DNA from: Nannobrachium achirus
Lineage: Eukaryota > Chordata > Actinopteri > Myctophiformes > Myctophidae
Reading direction: 5' to 3'
Assembly: GCA_963921795.1 (NCBI GenBank)
Contig: OY997652.1
Span: 61,593,756 to 61,657,755 of the forward strand
DNA: 64,000 nt
Below are positions 38,801 to 50,800 of the stretch, one piece after another. Under the pieces are notes generated by a model, which did not search any database, was not told the DNA's origin, and was given only the letters and a program-made list of their open reading frames with translations. Position 1 is the first letter of the stretch. The number at the start of each line of letters is the position of its first letter. The position numbers and the translations under genes are program-made.

Positions 38801-41800
38801 CATTCTATAAATGTCTTCCAACTCAGTGCATCTCAAACTGTTTCATGTCAAGGACCCCCAAAATTAGCCTGACACTTCAGTCCGCACATCACCCCCCCCT
38901 GCTGGTGGGTGGTTTGTAGTGTGGACTGAAGCTGCACGTATTTTAATCTATTTCGAAGGCGCCTTTAGAGCGGGCGCTTTGAATGGGCCAATCAGGGTTG
39001 TATGCTTGGGGCACGTGGTTTGGGGCGGGTCCGGCAAGCCTAAGTAGGCTTGGTTTGGGGAAATGACGTAAAAAACAATGGACTTGTAGTTCTTCTCTCA
39101 CAACAACAACACATGAACACAACACAGACCATGGATTTGGATGCTGCAATCGGTTCCGTGGTTAGCAATTTGGAAAATATAACTTTTCTAAAACAAGAAC
39201 AAACAATTGCTCTTAAAGCTTTTGTAGAAAAGAAAGATGTATTTGCCGTCCTTCCAACTGGATTTGGTAAAAGTTTAATTTATCAAATAGCCCCACTCGT
39301 TGCAAAGAAGTTAGGACTTTATCAAAACCCAGTCGTTGTCGTCGTTTCTCCATTGGACGCTTTGATGGACGAGCAGATCAGAGAAGCCACCAGCCTCGGA
39401 CTTACTGCCTTTCGGCTTGGAAAGAGCAAAGACGACGATATCCTCAGTGGACGTGGACAGCTCATCTTTGGTAGCCCGGAGTCTTGGCTGCTAAATAAAA
39501 AATGGAGAGACATGTTGTCTTCGGAGGTATTCAAGGACAATTTAATGGGGATCTGCGTCGATGAAGTTCATCTTACATACGGATGGTAAGAGTTAATAGC
39601 TAAATATTCGCATGGCTAACGTCTGTGTATTGTGTAGAAGTATATAAGCAAACAACGACAGTCATAACTCTGGCCTAGGCTTACAAATGTTCGCCTCCTT
39701 TTCATCTGAGATGCGACGACGAGCTGTTGTATTTGTATTTCAGTTGTATTGGTACCAGTGTCGTTTCATGTAAAACACTTTTTCCAAGCAATTGTTAAGT
39801 GAAAACCGCTGATCTTCAAGCTCACAAACGTGTCGCTTCGAGCCACGCTGTGGGCTTGTTGATACCTTTATGCTATTTCCATTAGTTTGGCTCCTGGGCA
39901 AGCTCTTATCTCCTTTTTGGGTGTGCCTTCATACCCATATAGGCCTACTATTATAAACAAAACTACAACGACATATATACGGCTGTGCTTTACTGTTTCT
40001 TCTTATTTGTTTTAACATTAGCCCTGTGTCTGCCGTTTCGCAAACAAAACACAGACGTTTAATCACCCGCTTTGTGCTATGCATTTTCTTGATAGAACAG
40101 CAAGCAGATACATGTTGTACAAAGCGTTCTAATGTCCTGTTCTGTTCTTTTCCAGGGGGCTGTCCAAGAAAAGGGAAGCAGCTGCATTCAGGGAGAGCTT
40201 TTCCAAGTTGGGTGACCTACGATCACTTGTCAAAGAAGGTCAGTAATCTACATTATACATTTAAAATATTTTAAAGAATACCAAATTGTCGTGATTTGTG
40301 ACTAGAGTTTACTGTAAATGGCAAATCAGCGTTTTAAAGAAGAAAAACAGCTGTACCTGAGTAGACAAAGGGTTTTCTCATGTCTTTGTTTACCTTGTGT
40401 GTCTTAATTGGGTGAAACGATTCAAACATCAGACATCAACCATACATACACAAAATGGGAAGGCCTGTTTGGGTGTCAACCCTTTTTGCATTTTCTTTGT
40501 TTACCTAGTCACCTGTAGGACAGCCACTCACACACAAATAACTGATAACATATGGCTTCCCATTGTTACATGTGTAAATGTACTATTCAGGCATGTTGCA
40601 TACATAGAGCTATGTTGCTGATTTAAACACAAAGATAATCTTTACATCTTTGGGAGTTAGCCTGTAGAAAATAGTTGCGTATAGAGATTGTTTTGGCGTC
40701 CATACATATATATCCTACATATCATAGTCTTAATGTCTGTGTTTTAGATAATACTAAAAGCTGTGTCTGAAATATATTGCTGTTTTACAATAGAGGCTAA
40801 CATAATGCATTCATTTCTATTTACAGAAACACCTGTGTTGGCACTGACTGCATCAGCGGATGTCGACTCTAGAGCCAGGGTGAAGAAACAGCTGCACATG
40901 GACAACGTCAATACGACAACTGTGACGGTCAGCCCTAACCGCACTAACATCAGAATCGGAGTGGTCTCAGTCTCTGACGAAACGCTGGAGTCCCTGGATT
41001 GGGTTGTGAAGGAGGTTAAAACCAAGGGACTCTCCATGTCCCACATCCTCATCTACTGTCGACAAATTAAGACGCTTGCTAGAGTTTTTAATTATTTCTT
41101 AAGTTTGCTTGATGAGGATGCATACGTTGATAGGGACCCTGAACAAAGGCCTGAAAACCTACTGATAGGAATGTTTCACAGCCACACACATGCAGAGGAC
41201 AAAACCAGACTGCTGTCATCTCTAAGTGGGGAGGGGAATTGCAGAGTAATTGTCGCAACTACTGCTCTTGGGTTGGGTTTAAATGTCCGTACAGTATCTC
41301 ATGTCATCATGTATGGTGTACCAGATGATGTTGAATCGATTGTTCAGCAAGCAGGCAGGGCAGGCAGAGATGGCTCACAGTCACATGCTGCAGTGTATGT
41401 TGTTAAACAGCATAGACAGAAAGATGAGGGAGTAAAGGAGTTCCTAGCTAAATGCAAAAAAGGCTGCTGTCGAGAGGCCCTGTACAGTAAATTTGAAGAA
41501 CAGACTACAAGGGTTGAACCAAAACATTTATGTTGCACCTATTGTCACATTCTCTGTAAGTGCACCACTGAAGGTTGTGGAGGATCTATGCCTAATTATG
41601 AGTTGTTGCCTGAAGAGGTTTCTGGTAGATGCAGGGAGGTACAGCCAGAAGATAAAGTGTTGATCAGGGGAAAACTTGAGCAATACATGGCTGGTTTGGT
41701 ACCGGCAAATGCACATCTATTCACCTCACAGAAAGGTTGCACAGGGTTTGATACAGAACTCATTGATACTGTTTTAAATCACAGCCACAAGATTTTTGAC

Positions 41801-47800: not shown

Positions 47801-50800
47801 GCCCGCCACGCGGCACTTGGTGCCGTGATTTGAGCTTGTGTATCTGCTATTTTTCAATGGTTAAAGCTGACAATAATTCTAGGCCTAAATGAGTTAATGA
47901 AACAGAGGTGGAACATGTTATCTCACCCATAATGTCAAGTTCTTCCATGAGGCCACCCAGCTCTTCCTGCTCCACCTCTGGCTCCACGTCATCCCCATCT
48001 ACAACAGGCATCTCCAGGTATTCCTCGATTTCCAGCTTTAAGGCTTGAACAGCCTCCCCACATGCGTTTGCCAACTCATGCTGCTTCCCAATAGCATTGC
48101 TGTAATTGGTAGTGATGCCCATTTTGCAAAGCCGTTCAAAGACACGCTTCTTTGCCCCCCCAAAATGTAATATGGCGTTTATATAATGGGCAAAGCCAGA
48201 CAAGCGGGGATCTCTTCCTCTTATAGCTATGGCGGCTGCAGCACAAGTGGCAGGCAGAGAATTGTTGGTGATTTTGGAGAATATGTCTAGCAGGAATGGC
48301 GATAGACGTCTGAAATCTGACTCTAACTTTTCAAACGAAAAGGATTTCAGATCAGCGGGTGATGTCTTCCACAGCATACAATCACCATTCACGCTACAGA
48401 AGGTGGTGCATTCAGCCCCAATTTGTGCCAGAACTTGATCCTTGACTGCTTTTGCTAGGTCCCTGTGACCTAGAATCTGTTTTGCAGCTGTTGTCCATTT
48501 TTTATTGGTGATGTTGGTCACAATCCCAGCCTCTTCTGGACCCGAAACCTTCGAAACGGTTTTAGAGGGGTATTTGGTGATTACCTAAAATGAAAAAAAA
48601 AAAAATATATATATAGGAATAAAATAAAAAGTATTGAGATATTACATCAAACAACATCCCAGGCACACTCATATCTCTCTCTCTCTCTCTACTGAAAACC
48701 ACCTAAATACACAGACATACAGTTGTAGCTATCACAGCCTGTATGTCGGTGTAATTTTAATATTATTCTTTGTATTGCTAAAGAAATTGACAAGTCTAAC
48801 CAGATTCAATAATGACGTAATCTCCAGTCAGTATATCCTAGTTGTATAGTTGGTGTGCACAATGAGAACTTTTTAAAAACGATGTTAGTTATACTTTTCA
48901 ATCTTCAGTCTGTCTGTTCTCAGTCACTGGTAAGTACAGTATTTACTACAGTACTTACTACAGTATTACATTTACATAAGCAGTTTCTGTTGGCCAATTA
49001 GTGGCCATTAGTTTCTGTTTTAGCTATTGTTCAGAAGATTCATCTATAGATCAACTGAGAGCCCAAATATTCTATTGTAATTATTGGCTATACAACACAT
49101 GTTAATGCAGGCATATTTCAATCAAACTCAGAGACCCCTCATCGAAAACTATTTTGTTCCAGGGACCCCCAGGAGGCAAAGATTTGATTTCAGTCTATTA
49201 TGCATCTAGCTTAAGACCACATGTCCGTTGAGAAACTAAAACAAATACATTTTGATTCCATTAATTCATACTTTTACTAATAAGCATATCGCCACTGTCC
49301 AGCACAGTGTTTATACTTTTACTTAAGTAAAATATGCGAGTAATCTTTCCACCATTGCAAATAAGCATATCGCTACTGTCCAGCACTGTTTCATCATGTA
49401 AAACGGACGCCCAAAACTAGTGAAAATAGCTAGCACGATGTGCTTGTACATCTGCTATTTTCACAGGAATCAACAACAAAATAACAATCTTACCTCAGTT
49501 AAACTTCGCCGTGCAGAGGTTTCTGGACGACCAGGACTTTCTGCAGATGGTGGTGGCATTACATTTGCCTGGCTGCAAGCGGGGGACTCTACACGTTTCT
49601 TTTTCTCATCCCTTGGGGTTTTCGTTGGTGAATCTCTGGCCCTTTTTTCTGAGAGAGAGGAAGATGACCCATGGCTTGATGAGGTGGTAAACGATGCAGC
49701 CGACACCGGTCTGCTCGATGGAGCCGACGCTGGCCTGCTCGAACCGGGATCATTGCGCGACGGTTCTTTTTTAGAACCATTGCCAAACGCTGCTGCTGCG
49801 CCCGACGCTGCTTGGTTAAATCCAGGTCCATTTTCGTCCTCTTCCCATTTTCTGAACGTCGGTAATACGGTTTCCAAACGCTTTACTACGTTTTCACACT
49901 TAACACAAGAACGACATGATTTGCTCCGACGGTCAGTCAAAGTCAAGCCTATATTGCGGAGTCGCTCGAAAATATTCGTGTCCCTCGGATTTTTTTTTCT
50001 CTCGAAAACTTGTGCACTATGTCTAATTTTTCCCGTTTCCCCAGTTCTCAACCCTTCCTTGCAAAAACGACAAAAATCGTTCACGTCCATTTCCTCTCTG
50101 TCTACATTAAAGTATTAACAACACAAGAGCACGAGTATACTGCTAACGTTGTAGTTCCTTCAGCAGCAGCCTGAGTCTGTACCACTAACTACCGGCGCTT
50201 CTGGCTTACGTAGCAGGAAGCGCTGCTCTGCGCTGCTCTGATTGGTTTGTGCTCTAGCCAATAGAGGCCGGGGGAACGGATGTAAGCCCGCCCCTAACCT
50301 ACGTCAATAGGCTTTAGCCCGCCCCCGCTGAAGTAGAATGTCTGCCCGGAATCTCAGACTCTCCCCCCACGTAGTGGGGTGTGAGATGTCGGACGCTAGC
50401 AGTCAGGCAACCCCAAAATGACTCACGTTTGGCCGTGGACCCCCATCTCAAAATATCTTGTTCCAGTCACAAATGTTCGCTTCCCAAAAATATGTATTCA
50501 AATATTCAAATGTGTGTGTGTGTGTGCGTGTGCGTGTGCGTGTGCGTGTGCGTGCGTGCGTGCGTGCGTGCGTCTGTGTGTGTGCGTGCGTGCGTCTGTG
50601 TGTGTGTGTGTGTGTGTGTGTGTGTGTGTTGTGTGTCAGTCAGTGAATGATGTATTTAATGTTTACTGTGTTGTTTTCTCATCAGATTTCCATCGTCTCA
50701 CTCTAGACACAAACACAGCACACGGAGCCCTCTCTCTGTCTGAGAACAACAGGAAGGTGACACGTGTGTGGGGACAGGACCAATCATATCCTGAACTTCC

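Follow-up and report, generated by a model that had tools for sequence, protein, structure and literature searches.

An apparently autonomous DNA transposon, very probably of the AcademH type, with a RecQ-like helicase gene and a DUF6589 candidate transposase gene in Nannobrachium achirus

A stretch of 64,000 nucleotides from the genome of Nannobrachium achirus (GenBank assembly GCA_963921795.1, contig OY997652.1, positions 61,593,756 to 61,657,755 of the forward strand; hereafter, the window) harbors a DNA transposon of 11,546 bp (38865-50410, the flanking 9-bp duplications excluded), which very probably represents a recently mobile, apparently autonomous element of the AcademH type, its DUF6589 protein being most likely a DDE transposase. 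Two genes facing each other are predicted within it: a RecQ-like helicase of the superfamily 2 (SF2) type on the plus strand (three exons, 599 amino acids) and the DUF6589 gene on the minus strand (eight exons from 50090 to 44237, 1018 amino acids). The exon borders of both genes were predicted from the genomic sequence; GT-AG introns were found throughout and no internal stops, in agreement with a preliminary description of this DNA, which had reported two intact convergent spliced genes.

The preliminary description placed the element at 38856..50419. The insertion is real, but this range also takes in both target site duplications, i.e., the 9-bp sequence CCCCAAAAT, which is identical on the two sides of the element (Table 1), as had been stated. 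The terminal inverted match is short: the left end, TAGCCTGAC, agrees at 8 of 9 bases with the reverse-complemented right end, TTGCCTGAC, corresponding to the inverted ends T(A/T)GCCTGAC noticed earlier. The proposed reconstruction of the empty site also holds, since the flanks joined without the element align, with small gaps, over 115 bases with a sister repeat from position 36735 on.

A survey of the 1.66-Gb source genome returned at least 69 DUF6589 matches (102 of 164 candidates were scored, the counts being lower bounds), and none were found in 14 control genomes. Two further full-length copies, located on contigs C1 and C10, attained a survey score equal to that of the window copy, so the copy number of the family is at least three, short non-autonomous derivatives being outside this count. 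These copies have the ends in common with the window element, are 99.2-100% identical to it in the main BLAST segments, and are flanked by exact 9-bp duplications of their own, GTGTTGGCA and ATGATTAGA, which differ from CCCCAAAAT; both genes are open in all three copies. Two of the outcomes named as refuting in the preliminary description, a lack of further copies with these ends and a lack of paired ends and duplications at such copies, did not occur. The substitutions numbered 19 per 11,408 aligned sites between the window and C1 copies, 7 per 11,531 between the window and C10 copies, and 16 per 11,404 between the C1 and C10 copies, with six C10 bases at the join of two halves excluded; the copies also differ by non-coding indels. 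Assuming about 3e-9 substitutions per site and year, we estimate that this divergence represents roughly 0.1-0.3 million years. The variable sites comprised 17 of 6549 non-coding vs. 4 of 4851 coding positions (p 0.044), and three of the four coding changes alter the amino acid; these differences are too few to claim purifying selection. Overall, the element appears to be young, recently mobile, complete, and autonomous, as judged from the sequence of its copies.

A separate observation concerns contig C20 of genome G000, where four DUF6589 copies (45900912, 45914207, 46651463, and 46664758) display identical scores and are arranged as mirror images at a distance of about 0.75 Mb, which may reflect a segmental duplication in inverted orientation or an artifact of the assembly.

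In the Pfam search, DUF6589 was the sole match of the candidate transposase at E<=1 (3.3e-40, model positions 14-410 of 410), and no hAT, P, or RAG family was matched at this threshold. DUF6589 is still of unknown function in Pfam, and no paper containing this word was found in the literature searched. The D/D/E candidate catalytic residues (Table 1) are conserved. The first structure model (target P0001; mean predicted local distance difference test (pLDDT) score 68.0, predicted template modeling (pTM) score 0.54) did not resolve the catalytic core, and its matches were unrelated. The core was resolved in the second model, that of the fish DUF6589 homologue P0003, and its predicted structure resembles DDE transposases and recombinases, e.g., those of the P element, Hermes, and RAG1. 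In Foldseek alone, 0 of 160 matches of the P0003 model reached E<=0.001: glutamate dehydrogenase ranked at the top (3.4e-3), and Hermes and the P element appeared at E 0.2-0.6 amid unrelated rows. Since the predicted fold of the fish relative resembles DDE enzymes, a DDE transposase is the most likely identity of the DUF6589 protein, with an RNase H-like core into which a large helical segment is inserted. The former would be common to the P element, Hermes (hAT), and RAG1/Transib, and the latter can be likened to the insertion before the last E in hAT transposases. At the same time, P and hAT elements generate 8-bp and Transib elements 5-bp duplications, in contrast to 9 bp at the element studied. 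A hAT or P element was rejected because of this difference in length and because neither family was matched in Pfam at E<=1.

The helicase matched the Pfam families DEAD (5.6e-14) and Helicase_C (4e-17), both named in the preliminary description; RecQ_Zn_bind, also named there, and RQC were not among its matches at E<=1, and a helicase of the full RecQ type was rejected on this ground. Weak matches to ResIII and Cas3-like_C_2, below their cut-offs, fell inside the helicase core, and a cysteine-rich stretch can be read in the sequence after it. The top relative with a solved structure was WRN (E 1e-26). Hence, the element helicase has the core in common with the cellular RecQ enzymes (WRN, BLM, RECQL) but differs from them in its Pfam composition and in its position in the tree (see below). 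The protein searches scored only about 8,000 candidates with the most words in common; among the best 120 proteins listed, the named relatives nearest to the element helicase came from fish, lancelets, and corals, the same kinds of hosts as those of the transposase relatives. A tree of 34 helicases was built from 30 proteins hand-picked from these 120 and from those of the window family (family A) and three more families of the source genome (B, C, and D). In this tree, 24 element-like rows were placed together on one side of a branch with moderate support (92/60), the eight RecQ/BLM rows stood apart from them, and two long-branched rows fell in between.

Families B, C, and D were examined in two copies each. 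The ends of the family C elements are TAGCCTAGT/TAGCCTCGT and those of family D are TAGTCTC/CAATCTG, the borders being shifted from the BLAST edges by 2 bases in family C and by 1 base in family D. Duplications of 9 bp flank 4 of 4 copies of these two families; together with family A, exactly 9 bp were found in all seven copies with both ends resolved vs. 0 of 42 mismatched pairs of left and right flanks, although an 8-bp reading is possible for family D if the element starts with G. In family B (left end TAGCCTG or TTGCCTG), the right end was not found in the two copies, and hence the duplication was not scored. A helicase related to that of the window resides beside DUF6589 in families B, C, and D, so the pairing was observed in 4 of 4 families examined. 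As compared over last-exon pieces only, the identity in the family pairs including D was 31.5-33.4% for the helicase and 31.9-34.8% for the transposase; in the other three pairs, it was 48.9-52.0% and 54.5-61.1%, respectively. Since the identity is low or high in the same pairs for both genes, it supports a long partnership of the helicase and the transposase and not a late capture. These concerted differences, the presence of the gene in every family examined, and the separation of the element-like rows from the RecQ/BLM rows make it unlikely that the helicase is a passenger, i.e., a captured host RecQ gene dispensable for movement.

According to passages of two papers, AcademH elements make duplications of 9 or 10 bp and AcademX elements those of 3 or 4 bp, the two being linked to a helicase and a nuclease, respectively (PMC10045372), and the DEAD and Helicase_C domains are tied to AcademH among others (PMC10799480). 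The assignment of the window element to AcademH follows from its match to these printed traits, i.e., the SF2 helicase with both domains and the duplications, whose length is exactly 9 bp in all three copies of the window family. As far as could be told, it is a new family of an already known kind, assigned by published traits and not by alignment to Academ sequences. The helicase-encoding branch of Academ, favored in the preliminary description, remains the best reading, fitting the helicase, the DUF6589 transposase candidate, the 9-bp duplications, and the near-identical copies, and the fallback claim of a new type is not needed. In comparison with AcademH, the present case is marked by three full-length copies that are nearly identical and retain both genes open, and by several diverged families in one fish genome. 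A paper by Kojima (2020, Mobile DNA 11:15) reportedly deals, by its title, with AcademH as helicase-encoding DNA transposons of animals and fungi; a literature search for AcademH revealed no title on fish elements among those listed. AcademX, placed with AcademH in one superfamily in a passage of the former source (PMC10045372), was ruled out by the 9-bp duplications; no nuclease was found in the Pfam scan, which at E<=1 returned only DUF6589, DEAD, Helicase_C, ResIII, and Cas3-like_C_2.

It is unlikely that DUF6589 DDE transposons with a RecQ-like helicase constitute a separate, undescribed superfamily resembling Academ by convergence. The link to AcademH does rest on described traits, and DUF6589 lacks both a function in Pfam and a mention in the literature searched, but the helicase and the duplication length given for AcademH in print are both present here, and the hosts of the relatives (fish, lancelets, and corals) fit the animals and fungi of the title mentioned above. 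A Kolobok transposase accompanied by a RecQ helicase is highly improbable, since 9 bp of varied sequence were found in the seven resolved copies, in contrast to the TTAA duplication of Kolobok elements. KolobokH and Kolobok-1_CCri do combine a DDE transposase with a RecQ helicase, as at the studied element, but their transposase belongs to another family, the candidate matching only DUF6589 at E<=1, and KolobokH is known only from fungi, as stated in a passage of the source (PMC9587614). Finally, a dead or domesticated gene pair between chance repeats, an idea consistent with the very short terminal repeat and a locus dense with other repeats, is hardly credible given the matching empty site and the occurrence of full-length copies at three unrelated sites, each with its own duplication.

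For the AcademH-type element, the DUF6589 transposase would bind the short ends together with the subterminal hairpin regions, excise the element, and integrate it into a target with a 9-bp stagger, which would give rise to the 9-bp duplications. We infer the DDE chemistry from the predicted fold; cut-and-paste movement, and not copying, and the involvement of the helicase are likewise inferred. The helicase, inherited together with the transposase, would most likely unwind DNA at the ends or in the repair following excision or insertion. To our knowledge, hAT and P elements transpose without a helicase of their own. One can tentatively, and with considerable doubt, envisage a currently competent vertebrate transposon whose RecQ-like helicase is required in DDE transposition, e.g., for opening the subterminal hairpins or displacing the donor strand. 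As far as we know, DNA transposons carrying a helicase have hardly been characterized beyond their sequence. With three copies that are nearly identical, apparently complete, and flanked by clean duplications, the present family is useful since it makes the role of the helicase directly testable. The fold result also suggests a likely function, that of a DDE transposase, for DUF6589.

The genes start 248 bp (helicase) and 320 bp (transposase) inside the element ends. Since CCAAT and GGGCGG motifs occur between each end and the gene start, the ends may double as promoters. In the other families, the z-scores of the subterminal hairpins were -3.3/-3.4 (left end of two copies of B), -1.4/-1.3 (C), and -1.5/-5.6 (D); a z-score of -2 was likewise reached in 6 of 56 internal control windows, and the hairpin as a trait common to families A-D is only suggestive. 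No match was obtained in the whole window with Rfam at the gathering threshold or with a tRNA scan.

Table 1. Features of the AcademH-type element and its predicted genes (positions in the window)
Feature	Position	Strand	Details	Basis
Left target site duplication	38856..38864	+	CCCCAAAAT, 9 bp	sequence, flank comparison
AcademH element (very probable)	38865..50410	.	11,546 bp, ends TAGCCTGAC / TTGCCTGAC	ends, copies, duplications
Left end	38865..39112	+	short terminal inverted repeat, hairpin at element bases 11-67 (z -3.5), CCAAT + GGGCGG upstream of helicase start	
Helicase exon 1	39113..39585	+	GFGKS 39260-39274, DEVH 39560-39571	predicted splicing
Helicase exon 2	40156..40238	+		predicted splicing
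Helicase exon 3	40827..42070	+	LTASA 40844-40858, QAGRAGR 41348-41368	predicted splicing, Pfam
Probable non-autonomous hAT	43564..44214	.	651 bp, nested between helicase and transposase genes; flanked by ACATAGTT (8-bp duplication, 43556-43563 and 44215-44222)	
Transposase exon 8 (last)	44237..45045	-	candidate catalytic E901 44591-44593	predicted splicing, Pfam
Transposase exon 7	45196..45320	-		predicted splicing
Transposase exon 6	46306..46382	-		predicted splicing
Transposase exon 5	46603..46783	-	candidate catalytic D639 46732-46734; conserved DWH, D673 46630-46632	
Transposase exon 4	46946..47022	-		predicted splicing
Transposase exon 3	47191..47723	-	DNLD with candidate catalytic D488 (47515-47517) or D491 (47506-47508)	
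Transposase exon 2	47927..48584	-		predicted splicing
Transposase exon 1	49494..50090	-	N-terminal cysteines C7, C10, C59, C62, C65; no Pfam match at E<=0.01	
Right end	50091..50410	-	short terminal inverted repeat, weaker hairpin (z -2.3), CCAAT/ATTGG + two GGGCGG upstream of transposase start	
Right target site duplication	50411..50419	+	CCCCAAAAT, 9 bp	sequence, flank comparison

Older repeats are nested in the element as well. The 651-bp repeat between the two genes is, judging from its ends, a probable hAT. Copy C1 lacks 120 bp (43560-43679), the largest indel among the copies, and with them the left end of this repeat. A near-perfect palindrome with 29-base arms and a 3-base spacer is located at 43882-43942, and the control window containing it folds the most strongly of all 56 (z -14).

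Parts of fish NLR genes were detected in the neighborhood: FISNA, NACHT, NOD2_WH, and NLRC4_HD2 at 15277-17256, a second NLRC4_HD2 fragment at 31549-32223, and, directly to the right of the element, PRY/SPRY within 50400-51227. The element is located immediately upstream of the PRY-SPRY domain, possibly within an intron of an NLR gene. The 23-base motif AATAGCAGATCTACAAGCTCACA occurs, with <=3 mismatches, at 41 places in the 64 kb (905-53011), within the element as well as beyond it, vs. none in 100 shuffles; at several of these places, it forms both arms of a short palindrome. At 36922-38786, a 182-bp unit containing GGGGACCCC stretches is repeated in tandem about 10 times, and this array stops about 80 bp before the insertion.
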